From a virus: DNA of 25,995 nt. Below are positions 7,362-19,400 of this stretch, piece by piece. The notes under the pieces were generated by a model. That model ran no database searches and was not told where the DNA came from. It saw nothing but the letters and a program-made list of their open reading frames with translations. Position 1 is the stretch's first letter. Each line of letters begins with the position of its first letter. The DNA lies in the IMG/VR virus record IMGVR_UViG_3300021335_000075, positions 1 through 25,995 of that record; one strand, written 5' to 3'. Both the position numbers and the translations under genes were made by a program.

Positions 7362-7402
7362 AAGTCAATGACTTGACAAGGGTATCTGTTTTTGTATATA
7401 AT
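7362..7402 (+). promoter_or_regulatory. Sigma70-type promoter with palindrome, before the NPPY methyltransferase-like gene
   Basis: -35 TTGACA at 7373-7378, an 18-bp spacer, and -10 TATAAT at 7397-7402. A palindrome AAGTCA-A-TGACTT (7362-7374) overlaps the -35, a likely operator place. The -10 overlaps the ATG at 7401, so a transcript from here would need a later start, such as the ATG at 7443. It marks the switch from virion to modification genes. Confidence 0.7.
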
Positions 7403-8804
7403 GTGCCTTGTCACCGATGATGGATATCAACTTAAAGACTTTATGAATCCTCTAATGAATTTGATTAAGGAAGTTGATCCTGGATATCCAGAACCACTTT
7501 CTAATGAGACTATGACGATTTATTGCCATCAACAAGCAGCAATTAAAGAACTTATTGAACTTGGAAAGAGACCTGTTTGTTCTTTTGTTGGTATGACAAA
7601 AACATATAGAGGTTTTGCTAGATTTGATGATGGTGATTATTCTCATCTTCCAGAAGAAGTAATTCCAGATTTTATGATTCCTGTTCATAAGGATATTACT
7701 GATCACTATATCAGAGCAGAATTATATTCTCTTGGATTTAGAAAAAGTACTCTTGGTGGTTCAAATGAAGTTGTAGAATCTCCTCTTCATATTAAGACTT
7801 ATTCTGAGATGATTTCTTTTATAAGAAGTATAATTTTAAACATTGATAAAAGATTTAAGGAGTATCAGAAAACTTTTGGATTTACTCCAGAATCTCATAA
7901 AAAACTTATTAAAGAAAAAAATCCAGAAGCAATTAGAGCACCCAAACTACATCTAGTAAACTTTATTGTGAAAAAATTGAATAATCTTCCGAAAGATGCT
8001 AAAATATATGTACCTCAAGATGCTTTTGGACATTTTTCAATTACACTTTCAAATCTTGGATATTTAAATATCTTTACTGATAGTGATTATGAAATGAATC
8101 CAACGGGAATGAGTAATATTCCAAATTCTATTAAATATATCACAAGAGATGAGTATTCAAATATGAATGATTTTGATGCTGTAATTGGTAATCCTCCATA
8201 TGGAAAAGGTGGAAGATTGGCACTGCAATTCTTGAATGAATGTGTCGATAAAGTAAGAGAAAAGAAAGGACAAATTATTCTTGTTCTTCCCAAATCAATT
8301 AAGCAAGGTTCATCTAATTATAATAAGATTAATCGAGAACTTGAACTGGTTTGGACAAAAGATTGTAAGGATAATGATTTTGCTGCGAGTATTGATGCTT
8401 GTATTCAAGAATGGAAGATTGGTGATAAATTACGAGAGATTGATGTAGAGTATAAGGAACATCCTCATATTGAATTTCTTAGCTACGAGAATAGGTACGA
8501 CGCGGATATATTTGTTGGTGGAGATGGTGCTGGTGCTTCTGGTAAAGTTTTTCTTCCAGGAGAAAAGAATTCTGGTGGTAAGAAATGGACTGATTATGAA
8601 AAATCTGTGAGTCATAATTACATCAAAGTTCTTCCTGATGAAAATAATACTAAAGAACAGATTCTAGAAAGAATTATTTCTCTTGGACAGAAAGGTGATA
8701 ATACTTTCCGCGAAACTTCAATGGGAACAACTAATGGTATTCCTCATCTTGGCAAAACTAAACTGATTACAATCTACACAAAAAGATATGGTAATGGGCA
8801 CTGA
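7401..8804 (+). CDS. DNA adenine methyltransferase-like protein with NPPY motif but degenerate motif I
   Basis: About 467 residues from ATG 7401. A TTG at 7392 is possible; the promoter just upstream would favour ATG 7443. Motif IV is clear: FDAVIGNPPYGKGG, with NPPY encoded at 8190-8201, followed by a strand QIILVLP. The preceding region (APKLHLVNFIVKKL, then AKIYVPQDAFGHF, then LNIFTDSD) has the layout of a Rossmann-type SAM-binding fold, but the usual glycine-rich motif I is missing. The N-terminal ~180 residues are unassigned, and the ~120 residues after the catalytic half could recognise target DNA. It overlaps the next gene by 17 bp, and that gene carries a standard motif I. I infer a two-subunit or split N6-adenine methyltransferase, possibly protecting phage DNA from host restriction. 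A SAM-independent NPPY protein is the alternative. Confidence 0.7.
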   Translation: MCLVTDDGYQLKDFMNPLMNLIKEVDPGYPEPLSNETMTIYCHQQAAIKELIELGKRPVCSFVGMTKTYRGFARFDDGDYSHLPEEVIPDFMIPVHKDITDHYIRAELYSLGFRKSTLGGSNEVVESPLHIKTYSEMISFIRSIILNIDKRFKEYQKTFGFTPESHKKLIKEKNPEAIRAPKLHLVNFIVKKLNNLPKDAKIYVPQDAFGHFSITLSNLGYLNIFTDSDYEMNPTGMSNIPNSIKYITRDEYSNMNDFDAVIGNPPYGKGGRLALQFLNECVDKVREKKGQIILVLPKSIKQGSSNYNKINRELELVWTKDCKDNDFAASIDACIQEWKIGDKLREIDVEYKEHPHIEFLSYENRYDADIFVGGDGAGASGKVFLPGEKNSGGKKWTDYEKSVSHNYIKVLPDENNTKEQILERIISLGQKGDNTFRETSMGTTNGIPHLGKTKLITIYTKRYGNGH

Positions 8805-9276
8805 AAAGAACAAACATAATAAAAAAACTGGTTCTGAGATTGAGAGATCAAATGAAAGAATTGCAGAAACTCAAGAAGTATTCACACCAATGGAAATGTG
8901 TGAAGAAATGGTTCAGATGATTTCTCTTGAAAAGAGAATGAATCCAAACTCTAAATTTCTTGATAACTCTGCTGGTTCTGGAAACTTTATTCTCGCATTA
9001 AAAAAAGAACTTCTGAATTATCATTCTGAAGAACATATTCTAAACAATATGTTATATGCCGTTGAATTGATGGAAGATAATCATAAAGAACTCTGCGAAA
9101 GAGTTGGAGTTCCTTTGGATCATCCTCATTATGTTTGTCATGATGCACTCACATATGATTATTCTTTTGGAAAGTTGGTAAAATTAGAATCTCAATTAGG
9201 AAAGGTAAAAAAACCAGAATCTTATAGTCCACCTCCAAAAAATAATGAACCTAGTCAAGCTAAATTATTCTTGTGA
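8788..9276 (+). CDS. Methyltransferase-like protein with SAM-binding motif I, no NPPY
   Basis: 162 residues from ATG 8788; ATG 8794 is an alternative. Residues 30-46 (EVFTPMEMCEEMVQMI) match the start of the SAM-binding region in HsdM/Eco57I-type N6-adenine methyltransferases. Residues 57-67 (FLDNSAGSGNF) are motif I, AVEL (91-94) fits motif II and HDAL (118-121) fits motif III. The protein then ends in a Pro/Lys-rich tail with no motif IV. It is therefore only the SAM-binding half. It overlaps the NPPY gene by 17 bp, so the two are likely translated together. Its stop codon lies inside the left half-site of the next promoter cassette. A decayed remnant is the main alternative to a working half-enzyme. 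Confidence 0.75.
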   Translation: MVMGTEKNKHNKKTGSEIERSNERIAETQEVFTPMEMCEEMVQMISLEKRMNPNSKFLDNSAGSGNFILALKKELLNYHSEEHILNNMLYAVELMEDNHKELCERVGVPLDHPHYVCHDALTYDYSFGKLVKLESQLGKVKKPESYSPPPKNNEPSQAKLFL

Positions 9277-16733: not shown

Positions 16734-17204
16734 ATGGCTCAGTATTCTGGTGATGTTTGGATGGGTTCCGATGTTGGTCGTCAGACAGTTACTGTCAGTT
16801 CTAACACTGCTTATGGTGCAAAAAGAATGATGGCAGAAATCTACAATGCTGATGAAAATAACATCTACAATGTGAGGCAAGTAAGCAACTCTTCAGATTC
16901 TTCTAGTGGAGGGTCAATGGAAGGAAGTGGTATATTGCTCGGAGGAGCAGCAATTATATTTCTTATTGTATTTCTTGCTCCTTGGGTTTTTATGACCGCA
17001 GGTGGGGCACTTGGATATTGGGTATCTAAGAAACTATGTGGTACTGGATTATCTGATGCATTGGAAGATGAGAATGGTAAAGCAATTGCAATTATTCTTG
17101 CATCAACTCTTGCCCTTGGTGGATTTGGTTTTGTTCAAGGTAACAATTTTAAGGAAAGTATTAACACTGAAACAACTCAAACCCAACAACTTCAGCAGCA
17201 ATGA
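16734..17204 (+). CDS. Membrane protein with N-terminal soluble domain
   Basis: 156 residues. Residues 1-50 form a small soluble domain (DVWMGSDVGRQTVTVSSNTAYGAKRMMAEIYNADENNIYNVRQV) that reads as strand-helix-strand. A Ser/Gly linker follows (SSDSSSGGSMEGSG), then two hydrophobic segments at ~66-96 (ILLGGAAIIFLIVFLAPWVF) and ~116-134 (AIAIILASTLALGGFGFV). The C-terminus is Gln/Thr-rich. The layout suggests a small envelope protein with a cytoplasmic head. It overlaps the HNH gene by 4 bp. Function unknown. Confidence 0.75.
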   Translation: MAQYSGDVWMGSDVGRQTVTVSSNTAYGAKRMMAEIYNADENNIYNVRQVSNSSDSSSGGSMEGSGILLGGAAIIFLIVFLAPWVFMTAGGALGYWVSKKLCGTGLSDALEDENGKAIAIILASTLALGGFGFVQGNNFKESINTETTQTQQLQQQ

Positions 17205-17674
17205 ATCATCTTAGCATACAACCATATAAGACAATATTAGTCTTAAGTTCTGGTTATATGCCAATCAACTTTACATCTTGGAAAAGAGCAGTTGTTCTCA
17301 TACTTAAAGAAAAGGCACAGGTTCTTTCTTCCAAAGTAATTCGATTGGTTGATAACATCAAGATTCCATATAATACTTTTAACATTAAAAAACCATCCCG
17401 CAGTATGATATACAAACGGGACAGAAATAAGTGTCAATACTGCGGAGCAACAAAGAAACTAACTATTGACCATGTGATTCCTCGCTCTAAGGGTGGTGGA
17501 GATACTTGGGAGAATATGGTAGTTGCTTGCTCCTCTTGTAATGTAAAGAAAGGTGATAAATTGCTTGAGCAAACTAATATGAATCTGATGAAACAACCCA
17601 AATCTCATTACAATGGTGTGATGCTCTCTATTCTTGACACAAATGACCCAGAATGGGTTAATTATGCCTTTTGA
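17201..17674 (+). CDS. HNH endonuclease
   Basis: 157 residues. The HNH/McrA-type core is complete: CQYC (C78, C81), LTIDHVIPRSKGGGDTWEN with D90, H91 and N105, and CSSCNVKKG (C110, C113, N114), giving two zinc-binding Cys pairs and a metal-dependent beta-beta-alpha nuclease site. The N-terminal ~65 residues (VLSSGYMPINFTSWKRAVVLILKEKAQVL) match the extension found on a common cyanobacterial HNH protein family. It is coupled to the membrane gene by ATGA. It could be a free-standing homing enzyme, a packaging or recombination nuclease, or a host-derived enzyme; the sequence does not decide. Confidence 0.9.
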   Translation: MNHLSIQPYKTILVLSSGYMPINFTSWKRAVVLILKEKAQVLSSKVIRLVDNIKIPYNTFNIKKPSRSMIYKRDRNKCQYCGATKKLTIDHVIPRSKGGGDTWENMVVACSSCNVKKGDKLLEQTNMNLMKQPKSHYNGVMLSILDTNDPEWVNYAF

Positions 17675-17757: not shown

Positions 17758-18321
17758 ATGACTCGTCCTAATCTGGAAAAGGTTAAGACACTTTTCAAAC
17801 CCGATGAAAACGGATGCTCAGAATGGGTTACTGTTGAACAAGTTGTTGATCATGGTTTGAATTGGTCTGAAAATGGAAATGTTCGACGTGGAGTTGCTTT
17901 TGCTGTAGGGGAATATAAATGGGAATTTGGGCGCATTAAAGGTCCAAAATCTAAAATTCTTAAAATGCGTTTGGCTGGTATCAGCAACAAACTTGCATTT
18001 AATCAAACTATTCGTAAGGACATTCGGCAAGAGTTGCTTAAGCAAACTCGATCTGCTTTTGCTCCTAATTGCATTGTTCCCCTTGCAGAGAGTGATAAAG
18101 AGATTGACCATCGTTGGGGTCGTAAGGATCATCCAAACTATGATTATATCAACGATCCTGAGAAGCAAACCATCAATGATTTTATGCTTCTTTCTCATTC
18201 TCATAATCAATTCAAACGTGAACAATGTAAGAAATGCACGACAACTAATATCCGTTATGATGGTAAAGAATACACAACTTGTGAAGGTTGTCCTCTAGCA
18301 CAACCTGAATTATACTTATGA
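17758..18321 (+). CDS. Restriction-endonuclease-like HNH protein
   Basis: 187 residues. The C-terminal half carries EIDHRWGRKDHPNYD (D117, H118), then DFMLLSHSHNQFKREQCKKC (N150, C157, C160) and CEGC (C175, C178). This is the beta-beta-alpha metal layout of HNH enzymes in the type II restriction group (HphI-like, from memory), not of homing enzymes. The N-terminal 100 residues are helical and may bind DNA (GVAFAVGEYKWEFGRIKGPKSKIL). It is the only gene behind cassette D. Downstream lie a ParB-like gene and an adenine methyltransferase, so a modification-protected nuclease is possible. Sequence specificity is unknown. Confidence 0.7.
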   Translation: MTRPNLEKVKTLFKPDENGCSEWVTVEQVVDHGLNWSENGNVRRGVAFAVGEYKWEFGRIKGPKSKILKMRLAGISNKLAFNQTIRKDIRQELLKQTRSAFAPNCIVPLAESDKEIDHRWGRKDHPNYDYINDPEKQTINDFMLLSHSHNQFKREQCKKCTTTNIRYDGKEYTTCEGCPLAQPELYL

Positions 18322-18386: not shown

Positions 18387-19400
18387 ATGACTTACTCTAA
18401 AGAGGACAATCTTGTCCTGATAACTTCTATTGCAGACAATCTTGGATTCAAACCTGATAGATCAGCGTTTGATGTAGAAAAATATATTCCAATCACTCTT
18501 TTGAAAGTGAAAGAATTGTATTGTGATTCATCATTTCAGAGACTGATTAACCGAGCAATGATAAAAAAGGCAAAAGGATTTGATGCTAATCTTTGCCGTC
18601 CATTGTATGTTTTTAAGAGACCAAATGGAAAGTATTCTGTAGTTGATGGGCAACACACTACAACCATTGGTTATCTTTATACTGATGATGCTGGAGATCT
18701 TGTAGTTCCTTGCCAAGTCAGGGAACATGATTCTAATCTGACTGAAGAAGAATGTGTTATTCAGGAAGCAAACTTCTTTAAGTTGTTGAACTTTAGGCGA
18801 CGCAATGTTGGTAAGGTTGAAAAACTTCGTGCTGATATTGCTATCGGTGATGATGAAGCACTCAAAATTGAAGAGAAACTCATATCTATGGGAGTTAATG
18901 TTGAATTGATTGGTGATCCAAACGGTCTACCAGTTTATGGATACGATAAACTAATGGAAGCACATAATAATTACAAACTTCCAAATGTTCGTAGAGCAAT
19001 TCAACTTTATGACCAACTTAATCAAGATAAAAGAGCACCAAAGTGGGATAAAGACAAAGAATTAAATGGTGGATTGATTGGTGGTCTTTCTGCAATTTAC
19101 TATTTGATTGATACCGAACTTGGTTCTGGGGATAGAGCATATGGAATGACTGTCTATTTGGAAAATTTCCTAAAAAATGCTACTCCAAAGTCATTAACTG
19201 AAAAAACTGCTGGTGTTAGTCAGGCGGTTTTAATTGCAAGAAGAATTGTTGACAAATTCAATGCTTTGGTTGAGAATGGTATTATCAAAAAGAGAAACAA
19301 TGAATCACTCCAACAAACTATTGGAGAAAAAACAATGTCTTTAGCAGGTCTAGCAGATCCCTCTAAAATTGTAGTTAATGAAAGTGAAGATGAATCTTGA
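18387..19400 (+). CDS. ParB/Srx-fold protein
   Basis: 337 residues. Residues ~35-115 match the ParB N-terminal (ParB/Srx) fold: YIPITLLKVKELYCD, then RPLYVFKRPNGKYSVVDGQHTTTIGY with the DGQH motif at 87-90, where family members usually have GQHR or GERR. The rest is helical (RRNVGKVEKLRADIAIGDDEALKIEEKL...). ParB-fold proteins bind or hydrolyse nucleotides and often act with DNA modification genes in phages. Here the next gene, an adenine methyltransferase, overlaps by 23 bp. No helix-turn-helix for parS binding is obvious, so it is not a classic partition protein. Confidence 0.75.
   Translation: MTYSKEDNLVLITSIADNLGFKPDRSAFDVEKYIPITLLKVKELYCDSSFQRLINRAMIKKAKGFDANLCRPLYVFKRPNGKYSVVDGQHTTTIGYLYTDDAGDLVVPCQVREHDSNLTEEECVIQEANFFKLLNFRRRNVGKVEKLRADIAIGDDEALKIEEKLISMGVNVELIGDPNGLPVYGYDKLMEAHNNYKLPNVRRAIQLYDQLNQDKRAPKWDKDKELNGGLIGGLSAIYYLIDTELGSGDRAYGMTVYLENFLKNATPKSLTEKTAGVSQAVLIARRIVDKFNALVENGIIKKRNNESLQQTIGEKTMSLAGLADPSKIVVNESEDES

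Follow-up and report, generated by a model that had tools for sequence, protein, structure and literature searches.

A pair of overlapping genes in a cyanophage-like record

The window, by which we mean the entire 25,995-base stretch of DNA that was analysed, is a cyanophage-like record from a virus fragment that encodes collagen-like GIQGIQG tail proteins. On its forward strand lie two overlapping genes (Table 1), the upstream one (gene 1) encoding a putative catalytic and target-recognition protein and the downstream one (gene 2) a putative stand-alone S-adenosylmethionine (SAM)-binding half. A scan of all 25,995 bases detected one copy of gene 2 and no second. Gene 1 is preceded by a perfect match to a sigma-70-type promoter; the overall number of sites in the promoter scan was not above that in shuffled sequences, and this perfect match alone is notable. 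Because the ATG at 7401 falls within the promoter box, and because alignments to most relatives begin at residue 15 of gene 1, the true start of the gene is probably the ATG at 7443.

Table 1. Features of the gene pair in the window and of related loci. Coordinates refer to the window unless another record is named.
Feature	Coordinates	Strand	Remarks
Sigma-70-type promoter match, TTGACA-18-TATAAT, before gene 1	7373..7402	+	12/12 consensus positions
Gene 1, putative catalytic/target-recognition protein	7401..8804	+	467 aa; likelier start ATG 7443
N-terminal domain of gene 1, possibly GIY-YIG-like	7509..7880	+	residues about 37-160; fastest-evolving part; weak profile match
Degenerate (pseudo) SAM-binding half of gene 1	7938..8165	+	residues about 180-255; AlphaFold strands 201-204, 223-226, 244-246; TaqI 21-407 aligned to model 179-464
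Degenerate motif I, VPQDAFGHF	8010..8036	+	gene 1, residues 204-212; family pattern IY(V/I)PxDAxGxF
Catalytic half of gene 1	8163..8801	+	residues 255-467; corresponds to entire gene 1 of P-SSM2-type phages
Motif IV, NPPYG	8190..8204	+	gene 1, residues 264-268
Overlap of gene 1 and gene 2	8788..8804	+	exactly 17 bp; gene 2 in +1 frame
Gene 2, putative stand-alone SAM-binding half	8788..9276	+	162 aa
Motif X, FTP	8881..8889	+	gene 2
Motif I, DNSAGSGNF	8962..8988	+	gene 2
Motif II region, VELMEDN	9061..9081	+	gene 2; motif II E at 9064
Motif III region, HDALTYD	9139..9159	+	gene 2 stops after it
Tandem NPPY-first catalytic halves of ACG-2014f	L228 1461-3102 (ACG-2014f 136960-138601)		
Bacterial restriction-like operons with stand-alone SAM half	L192 5968-10953; L230 771-5850; L231 1083-6238		helicase/NPPY protein with degenerate motif I; SAM gene first or last

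A first-pass annotation of this DNA had described an upstream gene with motif IV and a degenerate motif I, a downstream gene with FTP and motifs I to III that ends before motif IV, and a 17-bp overlap between them. All of these features were located, and the length of the overlap is exact. FTP is not intact in gene 1, whose motif I has also lost its first acidic residue; in gene 2 an NPP-type motif is absent, the coding sequence ending just short of its expected place, and the relatives aligned to gene 2 likewise end before motif IV. The variant motif I of gene 1 (VPxDAxGxF) is kept across relatives of the long type described below and is similar to motif I of M.TaqI (EPACAHGPF), so that residual SAM binding by gene 1 is possible. 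In S-SKS1 (L001) and in L082, motif IV reads NYPYG, not NPPYG, and gene 2 is intact.

Profile comparisons show that the motifs of the two proteins are more than chance matches. Matches of the pair to PHROG families are strong (phrog_5172, 8e-40; phrog_4376, 4e-66), and Pfam matches lie just below the gathering threshold, to Eco57I/MTS around the NPPY of gene 1 and to N6_Mtase at positions 24-88 of gene 2. On the PADLOC mad2 profile, gene 2 spans positions 270-352 and gene 1 positions 234-419, a coverage that would be expected if gene 2 were the SAM half, and gene 1 extended into the catalytic half, of one enzyme.

The N-terminal domain of gene 1 may be GIY-YIG-like. Its match to T5orf172-type domains is weak (hhalign P 7.5e-4, probability 25%), Pfam gave no GIY-YIG match in the window gene 1, and the matches listed in a fold search with the gene 1 model all fall on the methyltransferase domain. 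In other pairs the larger gene carries a clear GIY-YIG domain in PKO111 gp114 (2.7e-15), one above the cut-off in L056, and a sub-threshold T5orf172 match in Ah1.

Several other genes in the window are of interest in their own right. An IceA-like protein (17758-18321; PF05315, E 1.4e-22) lies beside an HNH endonuclease (17201-17674) and is unusual phage cargo; we take its family to include NlaIII-type restriction endonucleases. A second NPPF protein (P0003, 19378-19962) has an odd motif I, CPFDTKESEF, matches the DNA methyltransferase family phrog_799 only at 197-387 of 458, and overlaps a ParB-like gene (18387-19400, phrog_2558); this may be another divided methyltransferase. The possibility that P0003 is a second client of gene 2 was weighed and rejected: the protein matches phrog_799 and EcoRI-type methylases, and no link to gene 2 was found. 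A tail-fibre-like protein (627-2495, phrog_15006) contains a subtilase domain (PF00082, 5e-10).

Conservation and selection of the gene pair

With gene 2 as query, 330 relatives were found in viral contigs, and the adjacency that the first-pass annotation had proposed to look for in other phages is present in more than 100 loci. Adjacency was counted over unique loci, after deduplication. A catalytic gene lies directly upstream at 59 of 70 gene 2 loci and one gene off at five; at two it would lie beyond the contig, and at four it was undetected by profile, although at three of these (L056, L087, L079) an NPP-like protein was seen by eye. Searching in the opposite direction, from the catalytic half, gave 66 GGNLA-type catalytic genes, followed directly by gene 2 in 61 cases, with gene 2 one gene off in four and the contig ending in one; none of the 66 was without gene 2. 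For L218, a catalytic gene of A7 type, no gene 2 lies within reach.

A few gene 2 copies are parted from the catalytic gene by a 2OG oxygenase, a PD-(D/E)xK-like gene, a helicase or a second catalytic gene. The intervening gene is 2OG-Fe(II) oxygenase-like in L054, L055, L063, L073, L078 and L113, and PD-(D/E)xK-like in Bellamy, L077 and L079. Tandem catalytic genes that differ in their C-terminal (target) domains stand ahead of a single SAM-half gene in L085 (4247-6396), L064, L075, L116 and L215.

Both genes are under purifying selection. Against relatives, dN/dS values run from 0.06 to 0.17 in gene 2 and from 0.09 to 0.17 in the catalytic half of gene 1; they are 0.14-0.42 in the pseudo SAM half and reach 0.62 in the N-terminal domain. 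Of 51 diverse pairs compared, all 51 keep D-x-S-A-G-x-G-N-F in gene 2 together with the N and the second P of gene 1's NPPY, irrespective of the kind of gene 1; gene 1's own motif I is missing from 28 and degenerate in the others.

Catalytic partners of gene 2 in phages

Gene 2 is found with catalytic partners of several types. The long type, which includes the window and S-SKS1, is about 450-470 aa and carries a degenerate SAM half; the middle type, about 250 aa, has a degenerate GDPxGxHS half; and the minimal type, about 190-205 aa, starts 8-16 residues ahead of NPPY and is represented by P-SSM2 036/037 and dozens of contigs. In P-SSM2 the start lies about 8 residues ahead of NPPY, so that minimal gene 1 has no SAM half whatever, and its gene 2 is of the same kind. 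Further types include an LHLEF subfamily and helicase fusions of 1040-1093 aa. A direct comparison is offered by L081 and L083, in which gene 2 is 95% and the catalytic half 83% identical, yet only one of the two has the pseudo SAM half; the SAM half of gene 1 is therefore dispensable and gene 2 is not. On the gene 2 tree, which is poorly resolved, 19 changes of partner type are needed (minimum possible 7, shuffled mean 40), and partners have therefore probably been exchanged repeatedly.

In ACG-2014f the two halves lie far apart: a lone gene 2 at 36 kb has no catalytic neighbour, and at 137 kb, 100 kb from gene 2, there are two NPPY-first genes that lack a SAM half, one starting MSQRFDVVIGNPPY and the other MKFDVVIGNPPY. 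The only SAM subunit of this phage may serve both tandem catalytic halves. Relatives of the MKFDVVIGNPPY-type catalytic half were found in 32 records, and all 32 belong to Synechococcus phage groups having gene 2 (ACG-2014f, MW02 phages, S-CAM7), as matched by phage group and accession among the gene 2 matches listed.

The same two-gene layout extends to Klebsiella phage PKO111, Shigella PSD9, Aeromonas Ah1 and Vibrio phi-ST2, the genes abutting without overlap in Ah1. The PKO111-type catalytic gene occurs in 12 records (11 Klebsiella, 1 Shigella), and the SAM half is in the same set. In Lak megaphages (L091, L092), SAM-half-like ORFs are accompanied by an NPPY protein, some with an in-frame TAG (recoding).

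Vequintaviruses encode a single-chain relative with intact YTDP and EPSAGKGSF ahead of NPPF. Gene 1 homologues that occur alone with a working motif I had been named beforehand as evidence against a joint enzyme. They do exist, in these phages, yet the scan with gene 2 gave no vequintavirus among the matches listed: the intact motif I is found where gene 2 is lacking, as a two-subunit model predicts.

Natural fusions and bacterial versions

In Aeromonas phages (65, CC2, Aeh1, ZPAH1 and others) a single protein has NPPY at about residue 10 and a C-terminal SAM half, which is the order of the window genes. The sole SAM site of this natural fusion is the gene 2-like part; the C-terminal domain of the Aeh1 protein shares 38% identity with PKO111 gp115 and 31% with window gene 2. 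Bacterial versions are also found. On actinobacterial chromosomes a SAM half is followed by a helicase with a degenerate DLFSTAGLF and then by a catalytic half with NPPY at residue 10, and plasmids from Lactococcus, Enterococcus and other bacteria encode, in either order, an 'Eco57I' helicase-methylase and an adjoining 'N-6 DNA methylase' of about 230 aa. The helicase-methylase's own motif I reads LEINSKTGLYP in the two plasmids inspected.

Predicted folds

The AlphaFold model of gene 1 alone (pLDDT 84, pTM 0.74) superposes, from residue 179 to 464, on TaqI 21-407 with a Z score of 14.0 over 257 aligned residues at 3.7 A, the dead SAM half included. In this model window gene 1 adopts the whole TaqI-like fold, its SAM half being degenerate, and has an N-terminal domain besides; it is not a bare catalytic half.

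The model of the CC2 fusion is of moderate overall confidence (pLDDT 72, pTM 0.67), although values in the core of each half are mostly near 90 or higher. Its residues 1-364, spanning both halves, superpose on MboIIA (Z 10.9, 145 residues aligned, 3.3 A), and both halves are also covered by the superpositions on HpyAVI, BceJIV, CcrM (9.8) and RsrI (9.5), the Z scores for the beta class being about 10-11 overall; TaqI and CamA match the first 250 residues only. From its superposition on beta-class enzymes, both halves are predicted to build one Rossmann fold in permuted order. It was on this natural fusion that the joint SAM and catalytic site, which the first-pass annotation had required of the predicted pair, was assessed. 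Thus the earlier proposal that one motif set is spread over two overlapping genes, with the catalytic before the SAM-binding part as in beta-class enzymes, gains support from the adjacency in more than 100 loci, the NPPY-first halves, the fusions in the same order and the fold predicted for the fusion.

A two-subunit model and its alternatives

Taken together, the gene pair probably encodes one two-subunit DNA adenine-N6 methyltransferase, with the SAM pocket in gene 2 and catalysis and target recognition in gene 1. Gene 1 would give the target-recognition region and the NPPY catalytic loop, and gene 2 the pocket for S-adenosylmethionine, formed by FTP, DxSAGxGNF and motifs II and III. We infer that the overlapping genes are translated together and that their products associate physically; SAM, bound by gene 2 only, would then face the NPPY of gene 1 in the arrangement of beta-class enzymes (motifs IV to VIII and the TRD, then X and I to III). 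Adenine-N6 specificity is suggested by the NPPY and FTP families only. In minimal versions such as that of P-SSM2, gene 2 would fill in the half of the Rossmann fold that gene 1 lacks. In the window version, since gene 1 is modelled as a complete fold, gene 2 would have to displace or bypass the dead SAM half, and probably does so. The likely role is methylation of phage DNA against host restriction, and relatives fused to helicase or GIY-YIG domains may restrict competitors.

The first-pass annotation had spoken of one enzyme split in two. The complementary motifs agree with that description, but gene 1 is not just a catalytic half and gene 2 has several different partners, for which reason 'SAM-binding subunit in trans' is a more fitting description than 'one enzyme cut in two'. 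On the best reading, gene 2 encodes a distinct subunit that binds SAM and is used by several kinds of catalytic partner, both in phages and in the restriction-like operons of bacteria. An extension of this reading has rather less assurance, at little better than even odds: trans-split adenine methyltransferases would form a general class, sharing a small SAM half-domain protein as the interchangeable cofactor subunit of several catalytic subunits that differ in their target domains, nucleases and helicases. The class would span cyanophages, T4-like phages and the restriction-like operons of bacterial plasmids or chromosomes, and the SAM halves of gene 1 would decay because the subunit replaces them.

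Gene 1 might instead be a self-sufficient TaqI-like methyltransferase with an unusual motif I, and gene 2 a SAM-binding accessory or regulator outside the active site. The completeness of the modelled fold, which takes in TaqI 21-407, and the conservation of the variant motif I in long-type relatives are in keeping with such an arrangement, but minimal gene 1 proteins lack any SAM half beside the same gene 2, the SAM half comes or goes between L081 and L083, gene 1 has lost FTP as well as the acidic residue that opens motif I, and the only SAM site of the natural fusion is in its gene 2 part. We regard independent activity of gene 1 as unlikely.

A programmed +1 frameshift at the overlap, yielding a fused single chain for part or all of the protein, would account for the frame relationship, which is +1 in 102 of 104 unique overlapping pairs, and for the existence of fused homologues. 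No slippery sequence or stop context common to the overlaps was found among the 104 unique pairs, however, and the stops vary (TGA or TAA, with differing neighbours). The overlap is explained by an ATG that falls, in the +1 frame, within the final codons of gene 1; furthermore, S-CAM7 and phi-ST2 have 4-bp overlaps, and the halves are 100 kb apart in ACG-2014f. Frameshifting is thus quite improbable.

The first-pass annotation had also raised a METTL3/METTL14-like heterodimer, in which a full active methyltransferase is joined to a full but inactive scaffold partner. Both chains of METTL3-METTL14 are full MT-A70 domains, and the active chain has the SAM site and DPPW. Gene 1 does resemble a pseudo-enzyme, in that its methyltransferase fold is full and its SAM site dead, but NPPY stays in gene 1, and gene 2, like the relatives aligned to it, has no motif IV. 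Because gene 2 ends before motif IV, neither chain alone holds a full active site, and we give a heterodimer of this type very little credence.

Decay or frameshift of one former gene, leaving pseudogene remnants or reflecting a sequencing error, had also been raised earlier and would be in keeping with the overlap in different frames, the swapped order and the degenerate motif I, but it can be virtually discarded, as the same layout recurs in more than 100 contigs and isolates, distant T4-like phages included, dN/dS is far below 1 in both genes, and a swapped order cannot arise from a frameshift.

If the two-subunit model is correct, this would be a Rossmann methyltransferase with its SAM pocket and catalytic loop on different proteins and with swappable partners, and thus an unusual natural example of in-trans assembly of an active site. 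Many 'hypothetical' cyanophage genes (phrog_4376, phrog_5172; P-SSM2 036/037) would then be explained, as would many pairs of small 'N-6 DNA methylase' and 'Eco57I domain' proteins on lactococcal and enterococcal plasmids, and annotators should then read such pairs jointly. It would also provide ready-made split adenine methyltransferases for proximity-labelling tools.

Comparison with known systems

The two-gene division seems to be undescribed for adenine methyltransferases: no description of one with its SAM half in trans was found in the open literature, a search that took in few subscription papers and had REBASE outside its scope. METTL3-METTL14 is a two-chain N6-adenine methyltransferase with one degenerate chain (PMC5023411). 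In the window pair, unlike in the METTL3-METTL14 scheme described above, neither protein has both an intact SAM motif and the catalytic motif. Circularly permuted M.EcoKI-like adenine methylases have been noted in jumbo phages (Iyer et al. 2021, PMC7824862), where they are described as single proteins and no two-gene form was found.

Natural two-chain methyltransferases with motifs divided between polypeptides are known among C5-cytosine enzymes, in M.AquI and M.EcoHK31I (PMC3404938). The likeness lies in the building of one methyltransferase from two polypeptides, with which the distribution of motifs in the window pair would agree. M.AquI and M.EcoHK31I differ in acting on cytosine-C5 and in not being permuted, and AquI is cut between the TRD and motifs IX-X, not between SAM-binding and catalytic parts.

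Among gamma-class enzymes of the M.TaqI/CamA/Eco57I type, the gene 1 model resembles TaqI in its catalytic domain and TRD, and the gene 2 profile matches FTP and motif I of CamA. Those enzymes have FTP, motif I and NPPY in order on one chain, whereas in the window pair the order is not kept, the SAM half of gene 1 being degenerate, or absent in relatives, and the function apparently supplied in trans from a gene encoded downstream. The order of parts is instead that of beta-class N6-adenine methyltransferases (M.MboIIA, M1.HpyAVI, CcrM, RsrI). The gene 2 motifs (FTP, DNSAGSGNF) belong to the gamma/N6_Mtase group, and beta-class enzymes are single chains, a state found here only in the Aeromonas fusions, as opposed to the two chains of the window; yet in the window genes and the Aeromonas fusions alike, the catalytic motifs (IV-VIII, TRD) come before the SAM motifs (X, I-III), as they do in the beta class.
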